Virus record (IMG/VR): IMGVR_UViG_3300017530_000053
Location: 1 to 28,214 of that record
Strand: one strand, 5' to 3'
DNA: 28,214 nt
Origin: a virus
Below, in pieces: positions 4,305 to 21,365 of the stretch. The position numbers and the translations under genes were made by a program. The notes below the pieces were generated by a model. That model was not told the DNA's origin. It saw only the letters and a program-made list of their open reading frames with translations, and did not search any database. Numbering within the stretch: position 1 is the stretch's first letter; the number at the start of each line of letters is the position of its first letter.

Positions 4305-4349
4305 ATCGTATTCGGCCAGGCTTCAATCCGCAACGGTTTGTGCCACTTC
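4305..4349 (-). promoter_or_regulatory. Phage promoter R1 with GAAGTGGCACAAA box
   Basis: Reading minus strand: GAAGTGGCACAAA at 4349-4337, -35-like TTGCGG (4333-4328), exactly 17 bp, then TACGAT (4310-4305), then a leader with AGGAGAGGAG and the ATG at 4284. It begins 1 nt after the TAG stop of the tail terminator gene and would drive the repeat protein and tail tube genes. Confidence 0.75.
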
Positions 4350-4350
4350 G

Positions 4351-4797
4351 CTAGGATGGCAACAGAGCCACGGCTCCCACCTTGCAGTGATAGACGGAGA
4401 CCGAGTGCCAGACCTTCTGATCGACCTCGTAGGCGCGAGTCGAAGGCCCTTCCTGAACACAGAACCACGCCAGCATATCCGTGGTGGCGATGTCTGCTCC
4501 GTCCAAGATGTTCCGAACGCGATCCTCAATCTGATCGGGCTGGTCGCTATCCGTGTCCCGGCCGAAAACGTGAATCTCCAAGCGAATCTCGCGGATTGCC
4601 TGCGTTTGCTGGGTATCATCGGCGACATCCGACAGCTTGTTGAACGTGACCCAATAGCGGTTCCGCAGGGCCGCTTCACTGTGAAACTGGACGTAGGTAT
4701 GGTAGATGTGCGGATCATCCGTGTCGCCGCCCAGTAGCGCCCGAAGCTGCGCATCCGCGTCCAGAAGAGCAAAGATGGACTGGTAGAGCACCAACAC
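4351..4797 (-). CDS. Tail terminator / tail completion protein
   Basis: 148 residues, starting with GTG at 4797. The pattern IFALLDADAQLRALLGG.....HIYHTYVQ....RNRYWVTFNKLSD....QAIREIRLEIHVFGRDTDS..DQIEDRVRNILDG...Y.VDQKVWHSVSVYHCKV fits DUF3168-type tail terminators, which cap the tube and join it to the head. Position (after head closure-region genes, before the tail tube) supports this. Its GTG overlaps by one base the TAG stop of the LAGLIDADG gene upstream, so the two are translationally coupled. Confidence 0.75.
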   Translation of the reverse strand: MLVLYQSIFALLDADAQLRALLGGDTDDPHIYHTYVQFHSEAALRNRYWVTFNKLSDVADDTQQTQAIREIRLEIHVFGRDTDSDQPDQIEDRVRNILDGADIATTDMLAWFCVQEGPSTRAYEVDQKVWHSVSVYHCKVGAVALLPS

Positions 4798-5237
4798 TAT
4801 GCCGCACCCGCGTGATTAAGATACGAAGAAGCTAGAACAAATCCACGGCGCAGTGCCGCAACTTGTGCAGGGTCGTCTCCGCGACGAAGGTTCCCGCGCT
4901 GTTCCCACGCCTCCATCGCCAACCACGCTTGGGCCGCCTTAATGCGCAAGTGCTGCCTCAATACCTGCAAAACCCCAATGGCTGCCTGGCCGTCAATCAT
5001 CCAGACAAAGACCTTCCGACGACCGATCATCTTTCGGTTGGCAACAACGCGGCCGCCGAAGACATCTGCCAACCATCGCACAATCGGTTCATACGTGTTC
5101 GTCACTTGAAGCCGAACCAAGAAACTCGGCACTAGCAACGGATTCCATCGCCGAGGACTTTGGGTGACAGTAATGCTCCCGTCGGCATCCACCAGCCCGG
5201 CCGTATAGACCCAATCGTCGTGGGATGGATACATCAT
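4797..5237 (-). CDS. LAGLIDADG homing endonuclease (single motif)
   Basis: 146 residues with the motif TAGLVDADGSI near residues 12-22, followed by the beta strands and helix of the family (VRLQVTNTYEPIVRWLADVFGGRV, then KVFVWMIDGQAAIGVLQVLRQHL...KAAQAWLAMEAW). With one motif it should act as a homodimer, like I-CreI. It sits between a 118-residue structural gene and the tail terminator, with no sign of an intron or intein, so it is free-standing. It is a paralogue of 6208-6645, and both share the IKAAqAWL.mE.W and sYLN.aG ending. Confidence 0.9.
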   Translation of the reverse strand: MMYPSHDDWVYTAGLVDADGSITVTQSPRRWNPLLVPSFLVRLQVTNTYEPIVRWLADVFGGRVVANRKMIGRRKVFVWMIDGQAAIGVLQVLRQHLRIKAAQAWLAMEAWEQRGNLRRGDDPAQVAALRRGFVLASSYLNHAGAA

Positions 5238-5251
5238 CAGCCCCTCTAGGG

Positions 5252-5608
5252 CTACAGCACGCTCAAAGCGAACACACGGGCATTGGCGCTCACAGCGTCG
5301 TAGTCGATCTGCACGGTGCCGTCGCTCTGGTTGTACAGCAGTGGCGGGAACGGGCCGAGCACGCCCACGGCGTCGACCGCGACCGTGAATGCGGAATCGT
5401 TCTGGATACGGCTGTATGGATCGGCGACCTGCTGGACGGTGATAGCCGTTGCCTGGACGGAGGCCGCGCCCATGCCATTCACGTACACGACGATGACGTT
5501 CCCGGCGGCATTCGCAAACTGCGCATCGTTGCCCGCAACCGGCGTATCCAACGTTGGCGCAACGCCAGCGCGGACAGTGTTGGTAAGAGTGATAGTATCT
5601 CGACCCAT
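5252..5608 (-). CDS. Putative structural protein (118 residues)
   Basis: A beta-rich protein, MGRDTITLTNTVRAGVAPTL..., with alternating Val/Ile strands (GNVIVVYVNGMGAASVQATAITVQQVADPY...FTVAVDAVGVLGPFPPLLYNQSDGTVQIDYDAVSANARVFAL). This looks like a small jelly-roll or decoration domain. It lies between the head closure and tail terminator genes, 3 nt after the 45-residue gene, with an AAGGAG ribosome site. The role in the virion, perhaps head decoration or joining, is inferred from position and composition only. Confidence 0.7.
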   Translation of the reverse strand: MGRDTITLTNTVRAGVAPTLDTPVAGNDAQFANAAGNVIVVYVNGMGAASVQATAITVQQVADPYSRIQNDSAFTVAVDAVGVLGPFPPLLYNQSDGTVQIDYDAVSANARVFALSVL

Positions 5609-5611
5609 GAT

Positions 5612-5749
5612 CTACTCCTTCTGCACGTCTGAGGTCTTCAGTGGCAGGCCCCCACCGTTCGACTTGGCCTCGCCACGGGCGAACGTGACGCGCTTGCCAT
5701 CGGGCGTGCGCCGACCTCCGGTCTTCTTTCCATTGAGCTTGGTTGCCAT
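5612..5749 (-). CDS. Small basic protein, 45 residues
   Basis: Starts ATG at 5749 after a strong AGGAGGAG ribosome site and reads MATKLNGKKTGGRRTPDGKR.. to KTSDVQKE before TAG. It is Lys/Arg/Gly rich. It is the first gene behind promoter R2, and its stop codon lies 3 nt before the next start. There is no recognisable domain; it may be a small nucleic-acid or virion protein. Confidence 0.7.
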   Translation of the reverse strand: MATKLNGKKTGGRRTPDGKRVTFARGEAKSNGGGLPLKTSDVQKE

Positions 5750-5766
5750 GATGTTTCTCCTCCTCT

Positions 5767-5811
5767 ATTGTAAGCTGGCCGCGCTGTCGCCGCGAGGGTT
5801 TGTGCCACTTC
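5767..5811 (-). promoter_or_regulatory. Phage promoter R2 with GAAGTGGCACAAA box
   Basis: Minus strand: GAAGTGGCACAAA from 5811, whose first G is the last base of the upstream gene's TAG stop; -35-like TCGCGG (5795-5790); 17 bp; TACAAT (5772-5767), an excellent -10. AGGAGGAG and the ATG at 5749 follow. Confidence 0.75.
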
Positions 5812-6218
5812 TACGGCTCGCCACCTCGGTTCACCCACGGCTCGCTCTGCTGACTATAGGACTCAACCCGTAGATACTGGTGATGGCCCCGACCCGCCGC
5901 GTCCAGCACCGCCATAACGCGATAGACCCGGAGCGGGCTGGTGCCCTCCTCTTCGATGAGATCATCAAGTTGAGCGTCCCCGCCGTTTACAGGATCGCCT
6001 AGCCAGAGCCGGTACTCATCGACGCGCATCAAACCGCCGGGCTTCGGGCGCTGGGTCGGCGGAGGCAGATTCGATAGTACGTGCGGCTGGATGGTGCCAG
6101 GGACGCCGGTGGCGATGGCCACGGAATCGGTCTCGGAGACCGAGCCGGAGGCCACTACGGCGCGTTGCCTGCGCCGAATGGTGAACAGCGAGTTGAAGCC
6201 CATCAACCTACGCGGCAT
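5811..6218 (-). CDS. Head closure protein (head-tail connector)
   Basis: 135 residues. MPRRLMGFNSLFTIRRRQRAVVASGSVSETDSVAIATGVPGTIQPHVLSNL.. then LDDLIEEEGTSPLRVYRVMAVLDAAGRGHHQYLRVE. Small beta-rich head closure proteins (SPP1 gp16/HK97 gp7 group) have this size and strand-rich pattern. It directly follows the head-tail adaptor, apart from the inserted LAGLIDADG gene, as expected for head closure. The start may be ATG at 6218, overlapping the endonuclease end, or ATG at 6203. Function is from size, context and pattern. Confidence 0.65.
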   Translation of the reverse strand: MPRRLMGFNSLFTIRRRQRAVVASGSVSETDSVAIATGVPGTIQPHVLSNLPPPTQRPKPGGLMRVDEYRLWLGDPVNGGDAQLDDLIEEEGTSPLRVYRVMAVLDAAGRGHHQYLRVESYSQQSEPWVNRGGEP

Positions 6219-6645
6219 TGTCTGGCCCTACACGATTGAGATAATGTGATGCTGCCAAGAACCCTTGTCGTAGAGCCTGTTCCTCTACAGGCATTCGCGC
6301 TCCACGGCCGCCACGCCGGATCGTCCGTTGTGCCCAGTATTCGAGAGTAAGCCACGCCCGTTCAGCCTTGATCAGCAGCCGAGGCCGCAGACGCACCAAC
6401 AGATCGATGGCGGCTTGGCCTTGCAGCAACCAACGATAACACGTCTTGCGGCCAGCCGTCGCTGGATTATATGGATAAGCCCGTCCACCAAAGTTCTTCA
6501 CCAACCAATCCATGATTCCCTCGTCGGTATTCGATACTGCGAGTCCGGGTACAATGTTGTAGGTCTGATTATGGCCGCCACTGAGCAAACTAACCGTACC
6601 ATCAGCATCAACCAACCCGGCCAAGTATGCCAATTTCTCACTCAT
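6208..6645 (-). CDS. LAGLIDADG homing endonuclease (single motif)
   Basis: 145 residues beginning MSEKLAYLAGLVDADGTVSL, so the motif is at about residues 8-16. The following AVSNTDEGIMDWLVKNFGGRAYPYN...CYRWLLQGQAAIDLLVRLRPRLLIKAERAWLTLEYW is typical of the single-motif family. Its start overlaps the end of the adaptor gene (6642) and its end overlaps the start of the head closure gene, so it was fitted into an operon without spacers. It is a paralogue of 4797-5237. Confidence 0.9.
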   Translation of the reverse strand: MSEKLAYLAGLVDADGTVSLLSGGHNQTYNIVPGLAVSNTDEGIMDWLVKNFGGRAYPYNPATAGRKTCYRWLLQGQAAIDLLVRLRPRLLIKAERAWLTLEYWAQRTIRRGGRGARMPVEEQALRQGFLAASHYLNRVGPDNAA

Positions 6646-7544
6646 CGCAGGGCCACTTGCCTGTAAGGCTCTAGGAGCATCTGTGCCGCATCAGGGATGA
6701 AGGGGTAGCCAGAACCACTCTCGCCCTGCGTCTTAGCACCGTAGGTGACGCTGTAGGAGCCGATCATGAAGCCGCCAACGCCGGTCACACCCTCTTCGTT
6801 CTGGCGTCGGGCCGCGATCAGTGAGGCCGTAATAATTGCCACCGCTAGCTCGATTTCCTGATCGAGCGCCACCGTAAGCAATGAGACTGCTGCGCCGGTC
6901 AGATGCGCGATGGCGACCTCGTTCATCTGTGCCGCGCGCACGACCGTCAGCGTGTTGGCCACGATGGCGTCAATCCACATAGATTCTGCGCCGATCTGGA
7001 TCACATCATTGACGGCCAAGCCGGAGGCATCAGCCACATCAACGTCCGTCTCCGAGTTGTCGAGCACCTCGGCGGTCGTCGTATTCGCCACATAGGACAC
7101 ACCAATAGGCTGTGCACCTCGTTGGCCGCCGCCCGTCTTGTACGTTAGCTCGGCTACGACCTCGGTCAGCCCCAGAGACACAAGCTCCGCCGATAGGCCC
7201 ACGGCCGTCGCCAGCGAGACTACTTCGACATAGCCGCCCTGGTTATTCGGGAACATATCAGGCGGATTGATGTCCGCCGTCTGGCCGCCTCCGATATGGA
7301 GCCGTAGCAGACGGGCCGCGTGCACTGGCAACACCGTTGGGTAGAAACGACGAGCATCCGTCCAGCGCTGGCGCTCAATCATCGTGCTGACAGCGAAGCT
7401 GCCGTGGATGTAGCTGTCGGCCATACGCGATGCTTGGCGCACATAATCTAGGATGTCGGCATCAACGATTCCGGTCAAATCCAAGCCAGTAAGATGATTA
7501 CGAAATTGCTGAGCCGTAAGATAGGCCGTACCCATGAGGGCCAT
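6642..7544 (-). CDS. Head-tail adaptor (connector) with inserted beta domain
   Basis: 300 residues. The N-terminal helices (MALMGTAYLTAQQFRNHLTGLDLTGIVDADILDYVRQASRMADSYIHG) and the C-terminal helix ending ...IPDAAQMLLEPYRQVALR fit the gp6/gp15-like adaptor family, which binds the portal ring. Between them, about residues 140-225, is an added beta domain (DVDVADASGLAVNDVIQIGAESMWIDAIVANTLTVVRA), a type of insertion often seen in phage structural proteins. Its length is greater than minimal adaptors, about 100 residues, because of this insertion. It sits between the capsid gene (plus an HNH gene) and head closure gene. Confidence 0.75.
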   Translation of the reverse strand: MALMGTAYLTAQQFRNHLTGLDLTGIVDADILDYVRQASRMADSYIHGSFAVSTMIERQRWTDARRFYPTVLPVHAARLLRLHIGGGQTADINPPDMFPNNQGGYVEVVSLATAVGLSAELVSLGLTEVVAELTYKTGGGQRGAQPIGVSYVANTTTAEVLDNSETDVDVADASGLAVNDVIQIGAESMWIDAIVANTLTVVRAAQMNEVAIAHLTGAAVSLLTVALDQEIELAVAIITASLIAARRQNEEGVTGVGGFMIGSYSVTYGAKTQGESGSGYPFIPDAAQMLLEPYRQVALR

Positions 7545-7547
7545 GAT

Positions 7548-8006
7548 TTATACCTCCACTTTCGAACGGGCTCGATAACGGCGTTGGCGTTCGGTGGCCG
7601 TATTGCGACTCACAATTCGGCGGCATTCCCGGCAATGCCGCTCGCCGTTATGGGCATAAGTATTTTCCTCGTCGAAGGGATGCCCATTAACGCACTGCGA
7701 TTTACGAGCGTTCTGGGCTGACGGACTTTCGCCACGAAGCACGTTCTCGCCTGACGTAACTGACTCAAGATGGGCATAGTTCACGCAAGCACGACTGCGG
7801 CATAGGTGATCGAGGACTAGACCCTCTGACACCGGGCCGACATAAAGCTCATACGAGAGACGGTGCGCCCGGACAGAGCCACCAAGAACCATCATATGGC
7901 CATAACCGTCAGCGTCAATCGGCCCCGTCCACAACCAGCAATCATTGTCGGCCACCTCATACTGGGCCTCGAATTGTTCCCGTAGCCGTGTGAGTAAATC
8001 GTTCAT
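7548..8006 (-). CDS. HNH homing endonuclease
   Basis: 152 residues with the same organisation as 1471-1971: CWLWTGP.DADGYG, VLDHLCRSRACVNYAHLE (HNH core), SGENVLRG..SAQNARKSQC and a C-terminal GHPFDEENTY...CRECRRI zinc motif. It lies between the capsid gene and the adaptor gene, 3 nt upstream of the latter, behind a hairpin terminator and an extended -10. Its first part is 68 bp identical to 1471-1971. Confidence 0.9.
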   Translation of the reverse strand: MNDLLTRLREQFEAQYEVADNDCWLWTGPIDADGYGHMMVLGGSVRAHRLSYELYVGPVSEGLVLDHLCRSRACVNYAHLESVTSGENVLRGESPSAQNARKSQCVNGHPFDEENTYAHNGERHCRECRRIVSRNTATERQRRYRARSKVEV

Positions 8007-8027
8007 GTTATGACCCTCCTCGCGGCC

Positions 8028-8033
8028 AGTATA
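8028..8033 (-). promoter_or_regulatory. Extended -10 promoter TGCTATACT
   Basis: Minus strand TGC TATACT directly follows the terminator hairpin and is followed by GAGGAGGG and the HNH ATG at 8006. No good -35 is seen, so it would depend on the extended -10. It could restart transcription for the HNH gene and the adaptor after the capsid terminator. Confidence 0.45.
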
Positions 8034-8039
8034 GCAAAT

Positions 8040-8066
8040 GGGGCAGGGCGTTTGATGCCCTGCCCC
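8040..8066 (-). terminator. Hairpin after the major capsid gene
   Basis: A perfect 10-bp inverted repeat (GGGGCAGGGC / GCCCTGCCCC, 7-nt loop) lies 33 nt downstream of the capsid stop. Only a short ATTT follows on the minus strand, so it may be a partial terminator or mRNA-stabilising hairpin. Confidence 0.55.
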
Positions 8067-8098
8067 ATGAGGTTTCCACTACGGCCTAGCCGCTAGGT

Positions 8099-9382
8099 TT
8101 AGGTCACACGGAGCTTGGCGGTGAAGTTCGGAACGCGGACAGCGACTCCGAACATTCCTACCAAAATGTACAACTTGGTCAGGGCACCAGTCACACCGAG
8201 CGGAAGCTCGATGACGGTCGGCGTGTCGCTACCGAGGTACGGCATCGATACAACGCTCTCGTCCAGGAGGAAGGCGTCGCTGATGCCCGCGTCGGCACCA
8301 ACCGTGTACACCGTCCAGTCAGCGCCCGGCACCTTGATGACAGGGACAACGCCGGAACCGGACAGGTTCACGCCGGTAACGTTCGGCAGACCCGGAACGA
8401 CCTCGACCCGCTCGCTCTCGATGAAGCGACGGAACGGCTGGAGTTCGTTCTCGAACTGAACGGCGTCGGCGACTCGCATCATGACGACGCTGGACATTCC
8501 GCCGAGGTTGACCGACAGGGCGTCAGCCTGATTCAGACCTTCCAGAATGGTGTCCGTACCGAGGGCGCGGATGTTCGCCGCCGGAATCGTTCGACGGAGA
8601 CCGTCGAAGGAGTTGGCGTCGTACAGTCCGTCAACCGTGTTCAGGGTGCCAGCGACGACGGTGGCGTTGCCCTGGAGGTAGGTCTGCTGTAGCTGCGCGG
8701 CGATAGCCTCGATGCCGAAGCTGATCTCCTGCTGCTCCGTGTTCCACGGCATTCCACCAGCCGTAACCGAGAGTTGCTGCTTGAGAGACGTACCGACTCG
8801 CAGGGCCAGCACAGCGATGTTGCTGGTTGCCCGCGTGTACACGCTCTGGCTGTCCGGGACGGCGGCCGTCTCAGCGATGTAGGTCGCTGCCGGTCGCGCG
8901 TCAACGCGCTGGAACGTGTGAACGAGACCATTCGCCGGAACCTTGTCCACTCGCGCGAACGCCGGGAAGCGCCGCACAAACGCCGCGTAGATCAGCGGCT
9001 CCAAGTCCTGACGGATCAGGACGTTACCGCTCACGGTGTCGATGAACTTGGCGAAGACCTCGTCATCGAGAATCTTCTGCTTAGTGTGATCGTTCGCCCA
9101 AGCCGCGAACGGGACGCCTGCGCCTTGTGCCGAGCCGTACTCAAGCTGGTCGCGGATTGCGGCCTTTAGTTGAGCCGGAGGCAGCGCGAGCGCCTTGGCT
9201 CGCACCCTTTCAATGTCCAGAGCGCGAGTGCGCTGGACACCGCGAACAGTGCCGCCCTCCTCGTGGGTTGCATCCTTGGCCGCGTCGGATGGAGACGGGG
9301 GCTGGCTCAGGCCAGCGATGCCCTTGTTGATCTCATCCAGGCGTTCAACGACGGCGTTGATGTCGAAGTCTTCGTCAGCCAT
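8099..9382 (-). CDS. Major capsid protein (HK97 fold)
   Basis: About 427 residues from MADEDFDINAVVERLDEINK; an alternative start is GTG 6 nt upstream. The N-terminal 110 residues are helical and charged, a delta-domain-like scaffold region (LDIERVRAKALALPPAQLKAAIRDQLE). The rest follows HK97-fold order: LEPLIYAAFVRRFPAFARVDKVPANGLVHTFQRVDARPAATYIAETAAVPDSQSVYTR..VALRVGTS (spine and beta strands), a long helical middle, and the terminal ..VGMFGVAVRVPNFTAKLRVT. The gene follows the protease/scaffold gene, apart from an HNH insertion, behind promoter R3 with AGAAGGAG. A separate N-terminal delta-like domain next to a full separate scaffold is worth noting. Confidence 0.85.
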   Translation of the reverse strand: MADEDFDINAVVERLDEINKGIAGLSQPPSPSDAAKDATHEEGGTVRGVQRTRALDIERVRAKALALPPAQLKAAIRDQLEYGSAQGAGVPFAAWANDHTKQKILDDEVFAKFIDTVSGNVLIRQDLEPLIYAAFVRRFPAFARVDKVPANGLVHTFQRVDARPAATYIAETAAVPDSQSVYTRATSNIAVLALRVGTSLKQQLSVTAGGMPWNTEQQEISFGIEAIAAQLQQTYLQGNATVVAGTLNTVDGLYDANSFDGLRRTIPAANIRALGTDTILEGLNQADALSVNLGGMSSVVMMRVADAVQFENELQPFRRFIESERVEVVPGLPNVTGVNLSGSGVVPVIKVPGADWTVYTVGADAGISDAFLLDESVVSMPYLGSDTPTVIELPLGVTGALTKLYILVGMFGVAVRVPNFTAKLRVT

Positions 9383-9384
9383 GA

Positions 9385-9858
9385 TCACTTACTCCTTCTG
9401 CTGGGGATCGGGCGGCGCGAAACGGGCCATCCGCTACTAACTCCATTATCTGTTGATAAGGGCCTGGCCGCAAGGCTTTGTGCCACTTCCGCTCTCTGCA
9501 CACATTCCTCATCCCACTGGCGTCGGCCAATTTCGTACTCGTACAGGATGTTATGGTTGTAGCAGCGGACATCCAGGTCTTCCAGTGATCGCTGCCCGGA
9601 GTTGATTGCTCGATAAAGAGCAGCACCAGGACTTGCACCATTTGCCCGCTCCTCATGCCCATCCCCGTTCTTGTGATTGATTACGAGTAATCGAAGATCG
9701 GATTCACCGCACATCACACATTGGCCACCCAACATTGCAAGCGCTCTGGCCTTCACATTCCTACCATATTGCCGTTGGTGCCGCTTTCTGGATTCCGGGT
9801 TATCCCGATTCCAAGCCATCGCCACTTCGCGCTTGTGGGCCAGGTCTGCGTAAGGCAT
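9385..9858 (-). CDS. HNH endonuclease inserted between protease and capsid genes
   Basis: 157 residues; its ATG overlaps the TAA stop of the protease gene. The core is LGGQCVMCGESDLRLLVINHKNGDGHEE (zinc CxxC and N-H-K-N-GDG), LYRAINSG, LDVRCYNHNILYEYE. This is a different HNH subtype from the other HNH genes here. The last 34 residues (from EVAQSLAARP) lie on a duplicated copy of the protease 3' end and on promoter R3, so this tail is probably a by-product of insertion, not a domain. The stop overlaps the ribosome site region of the capsid gene. Confidence 0.85.
   Translation of the reverse strand: MPYADLAHKREVAMAWNRDNPESRKRHQRQYGRNVKARALAMLGGQCVMCGESDLRLLVINHKNGDGHEERANGASPGAALYRAINSGQRSLEDLDVRCYNHNILYEYEIGRRQWDEECVQRAEVAQSLAARPLSTDNGVSSGWPVSRRPIPSRRSK
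9390..9489 (-). repeat. Diverged duplicate of the protease-gene 3' end (copy B)
   Basis: This segment parallels the last 92 bp of the protease gene (9858-9950). Both start GAAGTGGCACAAAGCCTTGCGG, then have 33 (here) or 34 unlike bases, then share GCGGATGGCCCGTTTCGCGCC. One frame ends RMARFAPPDPQQKE here and RMARFAPPESE there. Confidence 0.8.
9445..9489 (-). promoter_or_regulatory. Phage promoter R3 with GAAGTGGCACAAA box (capsid gene)
   Basis: Minus strand: GAAGTGGCACAAA (9489-9477), TTGCGG (9473-9468), 17 bp, GATAAT (9450-9445). It lies 63 bp upstream of the capsid ATG and inside the 3' end of the HNH frame. Confidence 0.7.
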
Positions 9859-10790
9859 TATTCACTTTCGGGTGGCGCGAAACGGGCCATCCGCTCAACG
9901 ACCCTGGCATCCAATGCCGGGTACTGTTCCGCAAGGCTTTGTGCCACTTCGCCCTCGCGCGTGGTGATGGTCTTGAGCGGAAGCTCCATCATCGCTTCGA
10001 GCACCTGCTGCATGTACTTGAGGGCCTTGTCCTGCTGTTCGACCTTCTCCTGGAGTCGCGTGTTGGCATCGGCAGTAGCCTCGGCCGAGTCGCCGATCTC
10101 CTTGACCTTGGCCGTCACGGCGTCGAGACCGTTCTGGGTGCAGGATGCCGCGTCCTTGGCAGCGATGAGGGTGTGCAAACTGGTGGCGAGATCGAACTCC
10201 TCATTCGGCTCCACGTCCTTGTCGGAGTCCAAGTTGTCCGTAATCTCATCCCAGGTATCCTCGATGAATGCCTGCCAGGACTCGATGACCTCCTTACCTT
10301 CCTTGGCACGGTTGCCCGCGCTCAGGTCGGTGTTCAGGAAAATCGGGATCAAGTTGTTGAGAGCAACGTAGAGGCCCGTGAACATCTTGTCGATGAGCGC
10401 GTCGGCTGCCTGGTCAGCGGTAACGTCGTCCTCGAAGTCACCCTTCGACTCGGACTTGTCGCCTTCCTCCTTGTTCTCGTCGGTCTCAGCCGCGTCCTCC
10501 TTGCTGTCGGACTCCTCAGACTCGTCGGAGTCATCATCGTCGTCCTTGCTGTCGGAGTCGTCGGAGTCGCCGGAGTCGTCGGAGTCGTCGTCATCCTTGT
10601 TCTCGGACTCACCCTTGGCCTCCGGCTTCTCGGCTTCGTCCTCTTCCTCCGGCTCCTTGGCCGCGGTGTCCTTCTCCTCCGGCTCCTCCTCGGAACCGTC
10701 ATCGCCCGCGTCGGCCTTGGCCTCGCCGTTCTCTGCGGTCGCGGCAGCCGCTTCCTGGGCGGCGCGCTCCTCGTCACTGATGTCAGCCAT
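9858..10790 (-). CDS. Nested capsid scaffold protein (in-frame internal start)
   Basis: Within the protease gene an in-frame ATG at 10790 (residue 399, MADISDEERAAQEAAAA) is preceded by AAGGAGG and an 8-nt spacer, a strong ribosome site in the middle of a coding region. The product would be about 310 residues: an Ala/Glu start, an acidic Asp/Ser-rich middle and a C-terminal coiled coil (TRLQEKVEQQDKALKYMQQVLEAMMEL), as in phage scaffolds. Lambda C/Nu3 is the known precedent for a scaffold nested in frame in a protease gene. Use of this start is an inference from the ribosome site. Confidence 0.65.
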   Translation of the reverse strand: MADISDEERAAQEAAAATAENGEAKADAGDDGSEEEPEEKDTAAKEPEEEDEAEKPEAKGESENKDDDDSDDSGDSDDSDSKDDDDDSDESEESDSKEDAAETDENKEEGDKSESKGDFEDDVTADQAADALIDKMFTGLYVALNNLIPIFLNTDLSAGNRAKEGKEVIESWQAFIEDTWDEITDNLDSDKDVEPNEEFDLATSLHTLIAAKDAASCTQNGLDAVTAKVKEIGDSAEATADANTRLQEKVEQQDKALKYMQQVLEAMMELPLKTITTREGEVAQSLAEQYPALDARVVERMARFAPPESE

Positions 10791-11984
10791 TTCGTTGGCC
10801 TCCTTTTCCTCCGGCCAGGTTGCCTTGTCGAATGCCGGAAGCTCGTTGGCGATGACGCTCTGCGCCATCAACGCATCTGCAATCTCTAGCTCGGAGTTGA
10901 GCCAGCCATCGTCCTTTTCGCGCTCCCACGGAGCCTTTTCGTCGAACTGCGAGTAGTGACGAGCAATGTGTGACTTCACGCGCCCCACTTCGCCCTCCGG
11001 GATATTTACTCCGCCTCGCCCGCCCTGGAGAACCACGGCGGCGGCAACAGCGCCTCGGAATACCACCACGAAACTGTCGTTCACGATGTCGTGGTGCGGC
11101 AGCTTATAGGCACCGAAGTTCTCGCGGTTTTCGGAGTCGAACCAGGCGAAACCGGTGCGGTACTTATTCCAGTTGATGGCGAACGCGAGCGGGCCACCGG
11201 CCCAAATTCGCAGCCGCTTGACAGCGGGGGCGCGTTGCCAGGCGCGATCTCGTGGGGCCTTCGCAGGGCTATGCCCACCGACGACTCCCTTACCCTCAAT
11301 CTCCAACTCCTCAAACGGAGCGGCCACGGCCTCCTTACCAACCCCAGCCGTCGCAACCAACCACGGCCGGGCCGAGATTTCGTCTTCGTCAAAATCGATG
11401 GCCCCACGCTCGAACAGGGACTTAACCGCCTCCTGCGTCCACGCGGTCTGATTGGCCGGGACGCCGACGATAGACGCCTCCAACGGGATGACGCCAGAGA
11501 TGTCGACGATTCGCTTCCCGAAATCGTCTTCGTCATCGGACTTCTCGGCCTCGGTGACGATCACGCCGACCGAGACACCGAGTCGGGTGCCGTTCAAGAC
11601 GTATTCATACGTCTGGACGGCCAGGGGGTTGCCGGTCTCGACGCGGATCACCATATCGAGATCGAGGCGACCCTCCCGCTTGACTAGCTCGGCCTTCGTG
11701 ACCACGCCGAAGACGTCCTGGGGCACCTTATAGGAATGGTTCAGGAAGATCAGCTTACCGACGAAGCCTTCCTTCATCTGCTTGAGGGCGTTCGTCGTGA
11801 AGCGGTCGGCCTCCAGATCGATGGCCGTGCTGGATGCGGTGCATAGCACCATCGGGCACTCGCCATCGCCATCGTCGTCGTGGGCCTTCATCGCCTCCGT
11901 GAACATGAAGAAGTCAGGCTGACGCACGTCCGGTGCGTAAGCCTGGCGGTCAGCCACGGCGGTTGGAGTAGTCTTCGTTGCCAT
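9858..11984 (-). CDS. Prohead protease fused to scaffold domain
   Basis: 708 residues. Residues about 1-210 match the HK97-type (S78) prohead protease pattern: FLNHSYKVPQDVFG with candidate catalytic His83, NGTRLGVSVG with candidate Ser138, and IPLEASIVGVPANQTAW. Residues about 260-380 form a second domain (WFDSENRENFGAYKLPHHDIVNDSFVVVFRGAVAAAVVLQGGRGG..HIARHYSQF..PWE) often attached to these proteases. From about 400 comes a Glu/Asp/Ser-rich region and coiled coil, the scaffold. It cleaves scaffold and capsid N-termini during head maturation. Promoter R5 precedes it. An internal start (10790) may give scaffold alone. Confidence 0.85.
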   Translation of the reverse strand: MATKTTPTAVADRQAYAPDVRQPDFFMFTEAMKAHDDDGDGECPMVLCTASSTAIDLEADRFTTNALKQMKEGFVGKLIFLNHSYKVPQDVFGVVTKAELVKREGRLDLDMVIRVETGNPLAVQTYEYVLNGTRLGVSVGVIVTEAEKSDDEDDFGKRIVDISGVIPLEASIVGVPANQTAWTQEAVKSLFERGAIDFDEDEISARPWLVATAGVGKEAVAAPFEELEIEGKGVVGGHSPAKAPRDRAWQRAPAVKRLRIWAGGPLAFAINWNKYRTGFAWFDSENRENFGAYKLPHHDIVNDSFVVVFRGAVAAAVVLQGGRGGVNIPEGEVGRVKSHIARHYSQFDEKAPWEREKDDGWLNSELEIADALMAQSVIANELPAFDKATWPEEKEANEMADISDEERAAQEAAAATAENGEAKADAGDDGSEEEPEEKDTAAKEPEEEDEAEKPEAKGESENKDDDDSDDSGDSDDSDSKDDDDDSDESEESDSKEDAAETDENKEEGDKSESKGDFEDDVTADQAADALIDKMFTGLYVALNNLIPIFLNTDLSAGNRAKEGKEVIESWQAFIEDTWDEITDNLDSDKDVEPNEEFDLATSLHTLIAAKDAASCTQNGLDAVTAKVKEIGDSAEATADANTRLQEKVEQQDKALKYMQQVLEAMMELPLKTITTREGEVAQSLAEQYPALDARVVERMARFAPPESE
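9929..9950 (-). repeat. GAAGTGGCACAAA box R4, inside the protease coding end
   Basis: The same 13-bp box and TTGCGG (9934-9929) occur here, coding EVAQSLAEQ. At the 17-bp position the hexamer is GATGCC, a poor -10. It may be a defunct promoter overwritten by coding sequence, or the parent of copy R3. Confidence 0.7.
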
Positions 11985-11998
11985 GATCGTTCTCCTTC

Positions 11999-12043
11999 AG
12001 TTTACGAGTGTAGGCCGCGTTGCGCTACGGTTTGTGCCACTTC
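11999..12043 (-). promoter_or_regulatory. Phage promoter R5 with GAAGTGGCACAAA box
   Basis: Minus strand: GAAGTGGCACAAA (12043-12031), TAGCGC (12027-12022), 17 bp, TAAACT (12004-11999), then GAAGGAGAA and the protease ATG at 11984. It starts 1 nt after the TAG stop of the portal gene. Confidence 0.65.
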
Positions 12044-12044
12044 A

Positions 12045-13604
12045 CTAATCGGGATCGTCGATTTCTTCTCCCGACTCATCGAGGTAGACTTCGTGCTCAA
12101 CGACGATGGTCTCCGGCTCGGCGGCCGCGGCCGCGCGCGCACCCGTTACGGGCGTACCGACGCTATGAGCGGCCCCGGTGCCGAGAATGAGCGGCGCAGC
12201 CTGAAATAGCCCTTCCAGGTAGCGCTTCTGCTCTTCGGTCTCGGTTGGCATCTGCCCGCCAATCATCTCCAGCGGCATCGCGCCGATTGGCGTCATGACC
12301 ATAATGATGTCGCCGCCCTCGATCGGCTCGAAGCCGTCCTCGGCACGTACCTCGTTGATCGTTCGCCACGGGAAGCCCGCGACGGCGTAGCGGTTGTAGT
12401 CCGCCTGGTCACGGGTGCTCTTGGCCGACTTCATGCGGTACTTGAACGTCAGGTTGAGGATGTTTGCCGAATGCAGCTTGCGGAAGACGTCGACGTGGTC
12501 TCGCGGATTGACATGCGTCAGGGCAACGGCCAGGCGCAGCATCGGCTGATCGATCTCGCCCGCGTAATACATCTGCTTGGCCTTGGTGCGGGCAAAGTCC
12601 GCGATCACCTTAGCGTTGATCTCCTCCTCGATCAGTCGGAGGAGCGGCTTGAGACCGCGATCCTCGCTCAACTCCTGCTGCGTCGTGGCATTAGCGCGGT
12701 TCACGTCGAAAGTGATACCCAAGTCCTGCGGGGCGATGCCGAATACGGCCGCGATCTTGCGTAGCAGGTAGACCTGCCACTGCATGTACTGCATGTCGCG
12801 GGCCGTCTGACCAAGCCTCATGAATTCCGGGTTCTTGACGCCACCGATGATGCCCATCTGCTTCTTACCCGCGACCTCGGCGTCCCAGTACATGCGGAAC
12901 GAGTCAACGGTGTGCGCGCCCACATTCTCGCCGAGGTTCAGGATGCCGTTCGGCGAATGTTGCTGCACCATGCGCTTGTTGAAGTCACGGGCCTCCAGGT
13001 CAGCGTCGATGGTGGCCTTCAGTGCCTCCAATGGCGAGAAGCCGTCCACGCGATGCGAGGTCGGGTTTGCCATCATCAGGACGATCTGCGTATCAAGCAG
13101 ATTGGAGACGAACACGTTGTTCGGCCACCACTCATAGCGCGGCTCACTGGGATCGCCGCTCCAACGTGGGCGCGTGCGAATGCTTGCGCCGTCCACCAGA
13201 TGCAGCGACGTTGGGAACCCGCCGACCGTAATCTCCTTCTCAATCACGCCCCGGTCGAGTACCAGGATGTCCTCGATCACCGGCTCGATCAATGCGCGGA
13301 AGGTCTTCTGTCGGTTGTTCGGGTGTAGGAGCATCAACTCAATGGTTGCCTGCAACTGCGGATCGAACTTGGCCTGGTCGTCGATGGGAATGACGCTCCA
13401 CGATGATTGAGAGACTTGGACGCGGCGGTGGTTGATGGCTGCACGCACCCATTCCGAGGTGTCCGCCCAATGTCGTAGCTGGGCGGCCTGCACCTTGCCG
13501 CCGGTCCGCGCCGAAGCGCGGCCGCCGAATGGGTGCACGCGATCAGGAGCCGTGACCTGCTCCTTGACCACAGTCTCGGTTGGTGCCGGGCCAACATTGA
13601 ACAT
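12045..13604 (-). CDS. Portal protein
   Basis: 519 residues. Motifs follow the phage portal family: LRHWADTSEWVRAAINHRRVQVSQSSWSVIP at the start, an aromatic wing region, DFNKRMVQQHSPNGILNLGENVG, LRKIAAVFGIAPQDLGITFDVNRANATTQQELSEDRGLKPLLRLIEEEIN, and an acidic, Ala-rich C-terminus. It forms the dodecameric ring at one vertex through which DNA is packaged. The order terminase, small genes, portal, protease, capsid is standard. The start is ATG at 13604; the gene before ends 11 nt upstream. Confidence 0.9.
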   Translation of the reverse strand: MFNVGPAPTETVVKEQVTAPDRVHPFGGRASARTGGKVQAAQLRHWADTSEWVRAAINHRRVQVSQSSWSVIPIDDQAKFDPQLQATIELMLLHPNNRQKTFRALIEPVIEDILVLDRGVIEKEITVGGFPTSLHLVDGASIRTRPRWSGDPSEPRYEWWPNNVFVSNLLDTQIVLMMANPTSHRVDGFSPLEALKATIDADLEARDFNKRMVQQHSPNGILNLGENVGAHTVDSFRMYWDAEVAGKKQMGIIGGVKNPEFMRLGQTARDMQYMQWQVYLLRKIAAVFGIAPQDLGITFDVNRANATTQQELSEDRGLKPLLRLIEEEINAKVIADFARTKAKQMYYAGEIDQPMLRLAVALTHVNPRDHVDVFRKLHSANILNLTFKYRMKSAKSTRDQADYNRYAVAGFPWRTINEVRAEDGFEPIEGGDIIMVMTPIGAMPLEMIGGQMPTETEEQKRYLEGLFQAAPLILGTGAAHSVGTPVTGARAAAAAEPETIVVEHEVYLDESGEEIDDPD

Positions 13605-13615
13605 TGAGCGTAGTC

Positions 13616-14065
13616 CTATCCAAACAACGAGGCGTCGGCCGAGTAAGCGTAGGTGGGGGCCGTCGCGCCGGTAAGCACGACTCGAATCCTGATCGCGCTA
13701 CCTAGTGGCAAGTCAACGGAGGTGTCGTCAGCAAGCGTCCCGTCAGTCGGAGTGATGACTGCGACGCCTGCCGCCTTCGGGCCGATACCAATCAGCCGCG
13801 TCGCCGTCGTAATCGGCTCGTCGGCATTGGCGAAGTGGGCGTTTGCCACGTCGGCCCACGAGCCGTCAGGGAGTTGGGTCTGGATGTAGAAGTCGACTTC
13901 GTCATCAGCGTCCGCCATGATAAGCTCCGTCACGCTCAGTTGAACAACCGCCGTGGCGAAGCCTTCGGTATCGATCTCCGGTGACGTGTCGGCCACCACC
14001 AAGTTGCCGGACGCGGCGCGGAGCAGCGCGTCCTTGACACGAAACAATCGGACTGCTTCAGCCAT
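13616..14065 (-). CDS. Conserved phage protein of unknown role (149 residues)
   Basis: MAEAVRLFRVKDALLRAASGNLVVADTSPEIDTEGFATAVVQLSVTELIMADADDEVDFYIQTQLPDGSWADVANAHFANADEPITTATRLIGIG...PLGSAIRIRVVLTGATAPTYAYSADASLFG. A beta-rich fold is likely: alternating strands and a DFYIQTQLPDGSWADVA motif found in several small phage structural proteins. It lies between the second paralogue gene and the portal gene, with GGACGGAG before the ATG. It is probably a virion protein but I cannot place it further. Confidence 0.8.
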   Translation of the reverse strand: MAEAVRLFRVKDALLRAASGNLVVADTSPEIDTEGFATAVVQLSVTELIMADADDEVDFYIQTQLPDGSWADVANAHFANADEPITTATRLIGIGPKAAGVAVITPTDGTLADDTSVDLPLGSAIRIRVVLTGATAPTYAYSADASLFG

Positions 14066-14097
14066 GTTCTACTCCGTCCTATTCCATGAAATACGAC

Positions 14098-14127
14098 AGC
14101 GGCAGCGAAATAGTCTCCGCTGCCGCT
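14098..14127 (-). terminator. Hairpin between two structural genes
   Basis: A perfect 10-bp stem (AGCGGCAGCG / CGCTGCCGCT) with a 10-nt loop lies between the paralogue gene and the next gene. On the minus strand it is followed by GTCGTATTTC, a weak U tract, so it may attenuate transcription or protect mRNA. Confidence 0.45.
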
Positions 14128-14174
14128 ATGATGCGTCGGTGATCGCTGAAACAACCACGGCGGCAGTGGGCGGC

Positions 14175-14540
14175 CTAGTGAACCGGGCCGAGTTGCGTCC
14201 AGTCGTGGTTATCGCCGTCCGTCGCCAGAAGCTCCGCCGGCGTCAGACCGGCGATGGTGTTCAGAAGCTCCGTGCGGCACTGCCGGGCTTGGTTGCCAAT
14301 GTCCCGCAGTAGCGCTGCGCACGCCGGTGCGTTGGCATCGCCGTTGGCGTCGAGCAGTCGCTCGCCCAGGCGGTTTCGAGCGTTGCCACTGATGTTCGCC
14401 TGGTACATGGCCTCGATGAGCGTAGCGAATACGCCCAGGATGACGGCTTCTTCCGCGTCGTCGACATTCACCTCCGGCTCGATGCGATCCATCACGATGT
14501 CCATCTCGGCTTCGCCTGCGTAAACTGCTGCAAGTCCCAT
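14175..14540 (-). CDS. Conserved 121-residue protein, paralogue of 2530-2895
   Basis: MGLAAVYAGEAEMDIVMDRIEPEVNVDDAEEAVILGVFATLIEAMYQANISGNARNRLGERLLDANGDANAPACAALLRDIGNQ... to DWTQLGPVH. Same length and same signatures as the protein at 2530-2895, so a duplicated gene family sits at both ends of the structural module. A strong ribosome site (AAAGGAGG) precedes it. Helical with no known motif. The two copies have diverged outside the SGNARNRL core and the two ends. Confidence 0.85.
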   Translation of the reverse strand: MGLAAVYAGEAEMDIVMDRIEPEVNVDDAEEAVILGVFATLIEAMYQANISGNARNRLGERLLDANGDANAPACAALLRDIGNQARQCRTELLNTIAGLTPAELLATDGDNHDWTQLGPVH

Positions 14541-14566
14541 CTTAGTCCTCCTTTGTTATGCCTGCG

Positions 14567-15088
14567 TTATGCAGTCTCGATGTAGAACAGGTAGAAGTCT
14601 GCCTGTCCAGCCGTCACAACCTGGCCGCCAATCGTGAAGATCACGTCACGCGCAACAGTCGTCAGCGGCACAGCCGCTTCGGCGACCGCACCCCAATACT
14701 GGTGGATACCTGCATCCCACGGGTTGCTTGCGTCCGCAACAGCGATAGCCGCAATCAGGTCAGCCGCCGCCTCCACGCCGAAGGCAACGGTGCCGGCGTC
14801 GGCGCCAGCGGTCGTGAACGTAACGAGCACGTTGGCGACAACACCGACAACGAGCGCGTCGGCCGGAATGCTCGTAGCCGCAAACAAGTTGATCGCGCCA
14901 ATGGCTCCGCCGTCGTCGGCGAAGTTATACTGAACGCGGGCAATCTTCAGGCCGATACCGGCCGCACCGCCCTCGGCAATCGGATCGAGGACATCCGCTG
15001 GCAGGATGGAGTTATCGGCAATCTCGGCGCTGTCGATGAAGAGGCCGCCGCCCAGCGGTAGATACTTTCGTAGTGGTTGCACAGGCAT
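14567..15088 (-). CDS. Putative structural protein (173 residues)
   Basis: MPVQPLRKYLPLGGGLFIDSAEIADNSILPADVLDPIAEGGAAGIGLKIARVQYNFADDGGAIGAINLFAATSIPADALVVGVVANVLVTFTTAGADAGTVAFGVEAAADLIAAIAVADASNPWDAGIHQYWGAVAEAAVPLTTVARDVIFTIGGQVVTAGQADFYLFYIETA. Low Cys and a beta pattern ending ..DVIFTIGGQVVTAGQADFYLFYIET resemble head fibre or decoration domains with a jelly-roll-like end. AAGGAGAACAATC precedes the ATG. The role is inferred from composition and position in the head module. Confidence 0.75.
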   Translation of the reverse strand: MPVQPLRKYLPLGGGLFIDSAEIADNSILPADVLDPIAEGGAAGIGLKIARVQYNFADDGGAIGAINLFAATSIPADALVVGVVANVLVTFTTAGADAGTVAFGVEAAADLIAAIAVADASNPWDAGIHQYWGAVAEAAVPLTTVARDVIFTIGGQVVTAGQADFYLFYIETA

Positions 15089-15099
15089 GATTGTTCTCC

Positions 15100-15339
15100 T
15101 TATCGTTGTCCGAAGTGCGCGATTCGCATCAGGCCCAATGCCTTTTCAACGACTCGGCTCTCCATTCGTTTGTTGGCCACCTTGTTCACCCATTCCTGAA
15201 ATGTCAGGTCAGGGTGCGCGTCAACCGTGACAAACTCTGCCAAGTAGTCTGGCACCAATCTCGGGCCGTCGCGGAAGGAAACAATGTGCCCTTCCTGCGG
15301 CGTCACGTTAGGGTGGATTCGTGCTGACTGCCTGTCCAC
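15100..15339 (-). CDS. Conserved small protein (79 residues), leaderless start
   Basis: Starts with GTG at 15339: MDRQSARIHPNVTPQEGHIVSFRDGPRLVPDYLAEFVTVDAHPDLTFQEWVNKVANKRMESRVVEKALGLMRIAHFGQR. There is no ribosome site, but the GTG lies 6 nt after TAAGCT, the -10 of promoter R6, so it is read as a leaderless mRNA. The C-terminal third is helical. Function unknown. It sits between the 59-residue gene and the structural gene. Confidence 0.65.
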   Translation of the reverse strand: MDRQSARIHPNVTPQEGHIVSFRDGPRLVPDYLAEFVTVDAHPDLTFQEWVNKVANKRMESRVVEKALGLMRIAHFGQR

Positions 15340-15345
15340 GATCTC

Positions 15346-15390
15346 AGCTTACGACGGCCAGAGCGGCTACGCAACGGTTTGTGCCACTTC
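15346..15390 (-). promoter_or_regulatory. Phage promoter R6 with GAAGTGGCACAAA box, leaderless
   Basis: Minus strand: GAAGTGGCACAAA (15390-15378), TTGCGT (15374-15369), 17 bp, TAAGCT (15351-15346), GAGATC and then GTG at 15339. It lies 8 nt after the TAA of the 59-residue gene. Bases from TAAGCT to GTG differ in only 2 of 15 positions from the promoter at 25011-25025. Confidence 0.75.
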
Positions 15391-15589: not shown

Positions 15590-17092
15590 CTAGCCGAAGC
15601 TCGGTTCAGCGAGATTACGGGCCTCGTCGCTCTGACGCACAGCATACCTCGTAGCGTCGAGAAGGTGATTGTTTCGGTCGAGGGGCACCTCGCCAATGGT
15701 TTCACCGAACTCGTCGTAGGGATAGCAATAGCTGTTTTGCTCAAAGGCCCAATGGATGAGGTTATTGAACACCAACAGATGGCCGGACTTCAGCAATGAG
15801 CCAACCTCAATCAGCCCAGCGAGCTTTGAATCAGCCTTAAATACCATCGACTCCGGGAATCGGGCCTGTACATCGTACATGGTCTCTGGTTTGGACGGGT
15901 CGACGAAAATACGTCCGATATTCTCGCACTCGTCCGTGGCCACAAACTCCTTCGCGTCCTCATCCCACTTCTCGACCTGCGACATTGCGGTGATGGCATC
16001 CAACATCTCATGCGGAGAACGCCATCGTTCATTAGGTGCAGCGATGTCCGGCGCGCAAGCCAAGTAGAACTCGCGGTAGATGTACCAGATTTCCGGTTCG
16101 AATGGATCATAGGCGATCCAGACAGCCGCGAACTTGTCCCTGCCGCCGTGCGTCGGGTCGATACCGATGAAGCGCGGCCAGTGCGCCGGAATCTCGATCG
16201 GATCGATGTACGTGCAATCTGGATACACGAGACCTTGCGGCTTCTCGAACTCCGCCTCATACATCATCCTGAAGTACCACACCGGAAGCAGTCGCTTCAG
16301 GCGCGCCTCCTCCTCCAGCGAGAAGTACGGATTGACGATGGATGGGAAACGAACGACCAGCGTATCCTGATCTTCGCCGGTCTCGGCGCGCTTGATGATT
16401 TCCGTCAGCCAGGGCGCGCCCGCCATGTAAGGTGTGGTCGTGATCAGGAGTCGGCCTTCGCCGTGAAGTCGCTGGGAGGTGATGTGGTAGATCGCCGGAT
16501 CGCGTACCTGTCCGCCCTCATCGATCCAAGCGGCCTCCAGGCGTGCGCCCTGAAGACGGTGACGGCGCTCGGCGGAACCGGCGTAAATCTGGACGTTGTA
16601 ACCGACAGGCCGGAGATCGATGCGCAAGTCCTGCTTGTTGAGGATTGTCTCTTCGGAGCAGCCGAACTTCGCACACAAGAAGCGCACCATGCGGGCGATC
16701 CCGACCGTGGCCTGGCGCATCATCTGGAGCGTTGGCCCAACGATGCCGAACAGGTACTCGGTGCCTTCCTCGCCCTCAGCGACCTTCTTCTCGATCTCTC
16801 GCCAGAGCCAGTGGGGGCCGATATGCGACTTGCCGCCCTGCGACCCCGCCAGGAGAATCAGGTTCGGCGTCTCCATGTCGAACCAGATGGGCTTCTGTCC
16901 CCAATGCGGGACGAGTTGCGCTAACAGAGGGCCGGACTTGAGAGCGTCGCCCAGCACGCGGCGTGGACGGCGTACCTCGACGACATTGCCTTTGACGCTG
17001 TATGCGTCCGTCGGCAACCGGAGGTTGCCATTGGCAGTCGAGACGTAGGTCTTCTTACGAACGACTTTCAACTTCGCGGGTGAGCTAGTCAC
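15590..17092 (-). CDS. Terminase large subunit
   Basis: 500 residues from GTG at 17092 (VTSSPAKLK); the longer frame from 17128 runs over the promoter and is rejected. Walker A is GSQGGKS at residues 83-89 and Walker B is AAWIDE with D191-E192, followed by LLITTTPYM (motif III). The RNase H-like nuclease domain begins IGIDPTHGGRD with Asp312. It docks on the portal and pumps and cuts DNA. The gene starts the leftward structural block and is driven by a leaderless promoter. The first four residues (VTSS) are shared with the plus-strand gene at 18262 because of the duplicated promoter. Confidence 0.92.
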   Translation of the reverse strand: MTSSPAKLKVVRKKTYVSTANGNLRLPTDAYSVKGNVVEVRRPRRVLGDALKSGPLLAQLVPHWGQKPIWFDMETPNLILLAGSQGGKSHIGPHWLWREIEKKVAEGEEGTEYLFGIVGPTLQMMRQATVGIARMVRFLCAKFGCSEETILNKQDLRIDLRPVGYNVQIYAGSAERRHRLQGARLEAAWIDEGGQVRDPAIYHITSQRLHGEGRLLITTTPYMAGAPWLTEIIKRAETGEDQDTLVVRFPSIVNPYFSLEEEARLKRLLPVWYFRMMYEAEFEKPQGLVYPDCTYIDPIEIPAHWPRFIGIDPTHGGRDKFAAVWIAYDPFEPEIWYIYREFYLACAPDIAAPNERWRSPHEMLDAITAMSQVEKWDEDAKEFVATDECENIGRIFVDPSKPETMYDVQARFPESMVFKADSKLAGLIEVGSLLKSGHLLVFNNLIHWAFEQNSYCYPYDEFGETIGEVPLDRNNHLLDATRYAVRQSDEARNLAEPSFG

Positions 17093-17131
17093 GGACCAAT
17101 AATACCTTTTCCGGGCCGGCCTTGTCAACCG
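17081..17131 (-). repeat. 51-bp inverted copy of the promoter-start block (left copy)
   Basis: This 51-bp sequence reads on the minus strand exactly as 18223-18273 reads on the plus strand. It contains TTGACA (17128-17123), 18 bp, TATTAT (17104-17099), 6 nt and the GTG start at 17092, and the first codons. The two copies face outward. Confidence 0.95.
17099..17128 (-). promoter_or_regulatory. Leaderless sigma-70-type promoter of the terminase gene
   Basis: TTGACA-N18-TATTAT followed by TGGTCC and GTG. The expected transcription start, 7 nt past the -10, is the G of GTG, so the mRNA has no leader. No ribosome site is present, consistent with this reading. Confidence 0.75.
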
Positions 17132-17135
17132 GCCC
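17113..17135. promoter_or_regulatory. Inverted repeat across the divergent -35 boxes (operator candidate)
   Basis: GGGCCGG (17113-17119) and CCGGCCC (17129-17135) form a perfect 7-bp inverted repeat with a 9-bp centre, overlapping the -35 elements of both divergent promoters. The plus-strand copy at 18223 lacks one arm. Confidence 0.5.
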
Positions 17136-17151
17136 GCGACTGTGATAGGCT
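17122..17151 (+). promoter_or_regulatory. Promoter for the 17160-18202 operon
   Basis: TTGTCA (17122-17127), 18 bp, TAGGCT (17146-17151), then 8 nt to the ATG at 17160. The expected start leaves almost no leader and no ribosome site is seen. Its -35 overlaps the opposed terminase promoter's -35. Confidence 0.5.
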
Positions 17152-17159
17152 GTCAGCGT

Positions 17160-18222: not shown

Positions 18223-18273
18223 CGGTTGACAAGGCCGGCCCGGAAAAGGTATTATTGGTCCGTGACTAGCTCA
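18223..18273 (+). repeat. 51-bp promoter-start block (right copy, outward)
   Basis: Identical over 51 bp to the reverse of 17081-17131. It holds TTGACA (18226-18231), 18 bp, TATTAT (18250-18255), 6 nt and the GTG at 18262. It acts as a leaderless promoter for the gene at 18262. Confidence 0.95.
18226..18255 (+). promoter_or_regulatory. Leaderless promoter for the zinc-ribbon gene
   Basis: TTGACA-N18-TATTAT, then TGGTCC and GTG at 18262. The GTG is at the expected start site, so the transcript should be leaderless. Confidence 0.75.
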
Positions 18274-18797: not shown

Positions 18798-18861
18798 TGG
18801 GACTCGAACCCACAATCTCTGCTTTACGAAAGCAGCGCACGACCAGTTGTGCTTCAACGGC
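18786..18861 (-). tRNA. tRNA-Thr(CGT)
   Basis: Acceptor GCCGTTG/CAACGGC with encoded CCA. The anticodon stem CTGCT/AGCAG has loop TTCGTAA (anticodon CGT). Last member of the cluster; immediately follows tRNA-Leu(TAG) in transcription. Confidence 0.9.
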
Positions 18862-20477: not shown

Positions 20478-20508
20478 TATGAACCTCCGTTCATTGTCCG
20501 ATTATTTT

Positions 20509-21336: not shown

Positions 21337-21365
21337 AATGTAACGGATCGCGGAACAATTGTCAA
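21337..21365 (-). promoter_or_regulatory. Promoter of the tRNA cluster
   Basis: Minus strand TTGACA (21365-21360), exactly 17 bp, TACATT (21342-21337): a strong sigma-70 promoter with a short leader before tRNA-Ala. Confidence 0.8.

Follow-up and report, generated by a model that had tools for sequence, protein, structure and literature searches.

A putative late promoter class marked by an upstream box in the virion genes of uncultured phages

In the late promoters of P2/P4 (Ogr/Delta) and Mu (C/Mor), the activator site overlaps a poor -35 element or lies just upstream of it, and host polymerase transcribes virion genes. T4 middle promoters carry a box of the phage's own in the -35 region, which substitutes for the host -35 through MotA and AsiA (PMC6024815). 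Phages phiEco32 and 7-11 use a sigma factor of their own for virion genes (PMC4331800). Stoperators, as in L5-like mycobacteriophages, are 13-base-pair (bp) asymmetric sites that are oriented with transcription and lie near stop codons (PMC9283540). Here we compare with these systems a repeated element in the virion genes of a 28-kb virus contig, IMG/VR record IMGVR_UViG_3300017530_000053 (28,214 nucleotides (nt), hereafter the window). Our evidence comes from sequence comparison, and promoter activity and 5′ ends are predicted. We propose, at a probability of about 75%, that the element marks a clade-specific late promoter class in which host RNA polymerase relies on a predicted activator bound to a box instead of on a -35.

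The 13-mer GAAGTGGCACAAA occurs in six exact copies, all on the minus strand and all in the block of virion genes. Sites are named below by the coordinate at which the 13-mer begins, and their features are collected in Table 1. All six positions listed in the initial annotation of the window were confirmed, as were the -10 hexamers it had placed exactly 17 bp further on. Dinucleotide shuffles gave a mean of 0.43 matches to GAAGTGGCACAAA with two mismatches allowed, and none of 100 shuffles reached six. When aligned on the 13-mer, the sites share one layout, namely the 13-mer, three nucleotides, TnGCGn, 17 nucleotides and a hexamer. The -35 had been described as TTGCGG-like; TTGCGG itself is present at three of the six sites, and the consensus is TnGCG. 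The terminal hexamer is -10-like at five sites. A -10 signal was detected at only one of 61 offsets tested, offset 26 after the 13-mer (best-offset p = 5e-5 over all offsets), where the mean number of matches to TATAAT was 3.83 out of 6, compared with about 2.5 at the next best offset. Four of six TAnnnT hexamers at one offset were obtained in none of 20,000 random draws. A weight matrix for the 45-nt element scored the six window sites at 46 or more and the rest of the window at 10.6 or less; since the matrix was built from the window's and one relative's own sites, the informative part is this gap and not the high score. The distance of the hexamer is fixed relative to the box and not to the start codon, which lies 6–62 nt away. 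As had also been noted, the boxes at 4349, 5811, 12043 and 15390 begin 0–8 nt past an upstream stop codon, and the box at 9489 falls within the 3′-terminal part of the HNH frame (9385–9858).

The 4–16 kb block of the window had no DNA-level match among 50,697 phage records. Using the presumed capsid, terminase and portal genes, we found three relatives in IMG/VR: G001 (103 kb, 82–86% protein identity to the window), G002 (54 kb, 63%) and G003 (24 kb, 34%). The contigs of the window, G001 and G002 are possibly incomplete genomes. The virion block is collinear between the window and G001, and the gene order in G002 is the same as in the window. The composite element recurs at the same places and with the same spacing in two relatives, G001 and G002, and in neither was the box conserved without a linked -10. 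G001 contains six copies in 103 kb, all in the virion block, five at the places of the window sites and the sixth before the terminase large subunit gene TerL (39946). Every copy reads GAAGTGGCCCAAA, with one identical A-to-C change each. All six G001 hexamers are -10-like (TAnnnT or GATACT) and lie at the window's exact distance, with a mean of 4.0 matches to TATAAT at offset 26. In G002, GGGGGCACAA stands at five orthologous gene borders, and four of its five hexamers are -10-like, one of these 1 nt closer. If counting starts at the first G of the GG doublet, the hexamer is 34 nt away at every site of the window and G001 and at four of the G002 sites; at the remaining G002 site it is 33 nt away.

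At orthologous sites of the window and G001, sequence identity was 0.53 in the upstream flank, 0.92 in the box, 0.95 in the linker, 0.88 in TnGCG, 0.58 in the spacer, 0.87 in the -10 and 0.54 in the downstream flank. Judged by these values, the conserved segments draw the outline of a promoter. Most orthologous hexamers that differ remain TAnnnT (TACAAT/TAAACT, TAAACT/TACACT, TAAGCT/TAGGAT), and spacer sequences vary among sites. We consider it highly improbable that these are plain host sigma-70 promoters with a poor -35, in which the box is accidental or repeat-derived and bound by no protein. The -10 and its spacing are indeed of the sigma-70 type, and the copies at 9489 and 9950 are a duplication around the HNH gene. 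However, copying would hardly yield one substitution six times in G001 and another box in G002 while the spacers differ, and conservation of the box is no lower than that of the -10.

Distant capsid-gene relatives (33–43% identity) showed no equivalent box at gene borders in a de novo repeat search of their loci, and no box was seen at a related locus in an Anaerolinea metagenome-assembled genome. When all of IMG/VR was scanned for the complete composite pattern, matches came from G001 (four places) and otherwise from two unrelated contigs only. With the 18-nt core alone, the scan returned 40 loci, nearly all with a single match and taken as chance, of which one (L025) has three clustered matches. 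Given the lack of a box in the 33–43% relatives and the recovery of G001 by the composite scan, the class is clade-specific in these comparisons and probably young.

As a candidate sigma-70-type promoter, the element has the -10 part, a TAnnnT-type hexamer at fixed spacing, and lacks a TTGACA-like -35. It shows the features of an activator-dependent phage promoter class: a shared box, a constant distance to the -10 and conservation relative to the flanks. None of the six window box sites passed a sigma-70 consensus scan, which is expected if polymerase needs help there. A separate class of TTGACA-N17/18-TAnnnT promoters serves non-virion genes at matching places in the window and G001, namely the transfer RNA (tRNA) array, a divergent gene near TerL and one more. 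Because the virion block has TnGCG at the -35 position and its sites fail the sigma-70 scan, the box appears to act in place of the -35. At the 15390 site, a GTG lies exactly 6 nt past the hexamer in all three phages (TAAGCT gagatc GTG in the window, TAAGCT gagggt GTG in G001 and TAGGAT cgggac GTG in G002). The distance is identical at TTGACA promoters, with TATTAT tggtcc GTG at 17128 and 18226 and TACTAT ggccct GTG at G001 41033. Since the 6-nt distance in three phages matches that of the TTGACA promoters, the simplest reading is that the transcript from 15390 begins at the G of GTG, in which case the hexamer would be a genuine -10 at its usual distance from the start, and the gene would be leaderless. 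The predicted +1 is a purine at all sites but one.

Our proposal is that the six elements, five of them with an intact -10, would constitute one promoter class serving virion genes, probably late in infection. The core would be an ordinary housekeeping-type -10 (TAnnnT) used by host RNA polymerase, with a start 7 nt after the hexamer. A block of 21 bp, GAAGTGGCACAAAnCnTnGCG, spanning about -51 to -31, would take the place of the degenerate host -35 (TnGCG). A trans-acting DNA-binding protein, most likely phage-encoded, would recognise the GAAGTGGCACAAAnCnTnGCG block and recruit or re-target polymerase, touching sigma or polymerase as T4 MotA does. As the box is changed at all copies within a genome, a trans-acting factor probably reads it, and the in-step change suggests that the protein reading the box changed too. 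The locked -10 argues for activation rather than repression.

A phage repressor would likewise leave in-step change, and the sites share with stoperators the 13-bp asymmetric sequence, the orientation with transcription and the location at gene borders. An operator or stoperator role, in which a repressor on the 13-mer halts virion-gene transcription in lysogens, nevertheless seems improbable to us. L5-type stoperators number at least 20 across the genome, most of them unlinked to promoters, and are accompanied by the gene of their repressor. Here, the sites are confined to the virion block (six in 103 kb of G001), all but one are locked to a -10 at one spacing, and TAnnnT is kept across three phages. 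Conservation moreover extends past the 13-mer to TnGCG, in a block of 21 bp, and no repressor-like family was found in the scanned G001 proteins.

Somewhat less improbable, though still unlikely, is recognition by a phage sigma factor or a sigma-like subunit, for which the box would be an extended -35 and TAnnnT the -10, with no separate activator, in the manner of phiEco32. A long, strict upstream element at fixed distance from the -10, present in multiple virion-gene copies that change in step, would fit this arrangement. As in phiEco32 and 7-11, a few well-conserved promoters lie in the virion cluster and host-type ones elsewhere; in those phages, however, the motif tAATGTAtA is -10-like and read by the phage sigma (PMC4331800), whereas here the -10 is ordinary and the novelty lies upstream. 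Models of sigma-70 regions 2, 4 and 4_2 had no match in the window, G001 or G002, while positive controls matched, although a diverged sigma could escape them. In addition, the host-type TTGACA promoters of these phages have the same -10 and the same start distance.

The string TGGCAC...TTGC, present in several sites, recalls sigma-54 promoters (TGGCAC-N5-TTGC) served by host sigma-54 and an enhancer-binding protein, and the G002 site at 36110 has the exact GG-N10-GC. We regard this explanation as very doubtful. The spacing is GG-N11-GC in all six window sites and in the G001 sites that retain GC, two G002 sites have no downstream GC, and TGGCAC has become TGGCCC at all G001 sites. The conserved hexamer 17 nt further down fits no sigma-54 promoter. 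The sigma-54 DNA-binding domain was absent from the window, G001 and G002 (controls matched), and one related genome record has no sigma-54 gene.

The proposed activator-dependent class most resembles T4 middle promoters, with which it shares a host-type -10, host polymerase with sigma-70 (proposed here) and several promoters per genome (PMC6024815). Unlike the T4 box, the one described here is longer, lies further up (-51 to -31, compared with a box centred at -30), is unrelated in sequence and precedes virion rather than middle genes; there is no MotA box at -30, and the Pfam matches of the scanned G001 proteins include no MotA or AsiA family. It also differs from the Ogr/Delta and C/Mor sites, which are dyad-like and of other sequence. 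The initial annotation had called the class undescribed. For this box, this agrees with the literature searched, in which we found no paper describing it and the box string gave unrelated chance matches only; the principle of an activator box replacing the -35 is known from T4 middle promoters. The box and its regulator would then be new, the latter possibly of a new family.

Several observations weigh against an activator-dependent promoter class. One of the six window copies has no -10, and G002 has one spacing that is 1 nt short and one hexamer that reads CATCCT. At 12043, a start 7 nt past the -10 would remove the Shine-Dalgarno sequence, leaving an 8-nt leader. The in-step change would also fit a repressor or a host factor, and the class is carried by three contigs only (the window, G001 and G002). 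Finally, the sigma searches identified no regulator, and no regulator gene was found in the 103 kb of G001 for the putative activator or alternative specificity subunit touching the -35 that had been suggested.

The search for this protein covered several further families. For T7-type RNA polymerase there was no match, though the control genomes gave none either, and the Pfam matches of the G001 proteins included no such family. Pfam and PHROG scans of the called and additional G001 frames returned a family A polymerase, RecA, RuvC, a single-strand binding protein and a topoisomerase, and no convincing activator or repressor. EthR_C gave a weak match in the Pfam scan of G001 (E 0.002). The MotA, AsiA, Ogr/Delta and Mor families were absent from the Pfam matches of the scanned G001 proteins.

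Two rearrangements are informative about function. A 1.1-kb segment of the window (17081–18188) is inverted relative to G001 and flanked by a 60-nt inverted repeat (17072–17131 / 18223–18282, 93%) with a TTGACA promoter at both ends. Through the inversion, a probable small-terminase-like gene (17142–17789) now lies on the plus strand. TerL has a TTGACA promoter in the window where G001 has the box promoter at 39946; it apparently captured the duplicated TTGACA/TATTAT promoter and may begin with GTG at +1. This exchange supports the view that the box element is a promoter, and it falls short of proof because G002 has the uninverted order yet no box at TerL. A second rearrangement concerns the HNH gene (9385–9950 region), which is inserted between the 708-codon and presumed capsid genes. 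On its two sides lie direct repeats, one pair of 28 nt and one of 22 nt, and the box is part of them. The box is thereby duplicated around the HNH gene, with GATAAT in the capsid-side copy and GATGCC in the copy before HNH, while G001 has a single site with GATACT. That the -10 was kept on the capsid side and not before HNH also supports a promoter function, and the copy at 9950 is likely a decayed duplicate.

A bolder extension of our proposal, to which we give even odds, is that the reader encoded by these phages is a late-transcription activator or sigma-remodelling factor from an undescribed family. Its specificity would have changed at least twice among the relatives, with all promoters following (GTGGCACAAA, GTGGCCCAAA, GGGGGCACAA). 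If true, these phages would offer a natural series of matched factor/promoter pairs, including one promoter that is conserved within a coding sequence and one leaderless transcript. Almost nothing is known of late control in uncultured phages, and here the box, the -10 and the start point can all be placed from sequence. The in-step re-specification in three phages should make the hidden regulator findable, as it should differ in its DNA-contacting part, and the three phages are ready-made tests of a regulator and its whole set of sites changing together. Together with its factor, a box/-10 pair could also be used for orthogonal expression.

In the initial annotation, the five sites with a -10 precede genes for the repeat/tube proteins, a 45-residue protein, capsid, protease/scaffold and a 79-residue protein. 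The portal and TerL have family hits; the labels 'protease/scaffold', 'tube' and 'capsid' have none.

Table 1. Box elements, host-type promoters and genes of the window. Box entries give the 13-mer, the -35-like hexamer and the hexamer 17 nt further on.
Feature	Position	Strand	Details
Box promoter 1	15346..15390	-	13-mer 15378-15390; GAAGTGGCACAAA-ccg-TTGCGT-N17-TAAGCT; gene of 79 codons, 15100-15339 (-), predicted start at its GTG (leaderless); G001 38206, G002 39782 (TAGGAT)
Box promoter 2	11999..12043	-	13-mer 12031-12043; TAGCGC, TAAACT; portal/708-codon gene border, ATG 14 nt on; G001 29599 TACACT, G002 36110 TATTTT
Box copy 3	9906..9950	-	13-mer 9938-9950; TTGCGG, GATGCC (no -10); in 3′ end of 708-codon gene, upstream of HNH gene
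Box promoter 4	9445..9489	-	13-mer 9477-9489; TTGCGG, GATAAT; in 3′ end of HNH gene, upstream of presumed capsid gene; G001 27614 (single copy) GATACT, G002 34169 CATCCT
Box promoter 5	5767..5811	-	13-mer 5799-5811; TCGCGG, TACAAT; ATG of 45-codon gene (5612-5749) 17 nt on; G001 24242 TAAACT, G002 30959 TAATAT (spacing 1 nt shorter)
Box promoter 6	4305..4349	-	13-mer 4337-4349; TTGCGG, TACGAT; 20 nt to ATG of 57-bp-repeat gene; G001 22773 TACGAT, G002 29641 TAATCT
Host-type promoter before TerL	17099..17128	-	TTGACA-N18-TATTAT; GTG 6 nt past -10; within inverted repeat
Second copy of TerL-side host-type promoter	18226..18255	+	original place as in G001 41033; leaderless GTG gene downstream
Host-type promoter upstream of tRNA array	21337..21365	-	TTGACA-N17-TACATT; conserved in G001 (46847); no box
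TerL, terminase large subunit (longest frame)	15590..17128	-	phrog_2, 2e-29
Portal gene	12045..13604	-	phrog_2662, 8.5e-46
708-codon gene behind box promoter 2	9858..11984	-	no family hit
HNH endonuclease gene between duplicated promoter regions	9385..9858	-	
Presumed major capsid gene	8099..9388	-	assigned from its position and conservation; no family hit

The G002 box at 30959 is immediately preceded on its upstream side by a second, imperfect box, GAAGGGGGACAAA (L066; 30965–30977 of the G002 contig, minus strand), which looks like a hybrid of the window and G002 boxes. In the gene behind box promoter 6, a 57-bp unit is present in five copies (3792–4041). At about the corresponding position (22.3 kb), G001 has a different repeat of 18 bp, and the unit thus turns over fast.

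Three genes were considered as regulators. The 197-residue protein encoded at 21396–21989 was found in this clade only among the loci fetched, and its basic C-terminus, VPKRLRRRGR, is invariant. Not every cysteine in it is conserved, its AlphaFold model was unusable (mean predicted local distance difference test score, pLDDT, 43), and we make no claim for it as a regulator. The Cys-pair genes at 18262–18663 (plus strand) and 22676–23383 (minus strand) gained no support.

The window also encodes HNH endonucleases and a tRNA array. The array comprises about 17 tRNA genes (18786–21296) with an HNH gene inside (19965–20477) and the TTGACA promoter at 21365, and ARAGORN made a doubtful transfer-messenger RNA call within it. 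The tRNA array of G001, at 42.7–46.8 kb, is seemingly larger.

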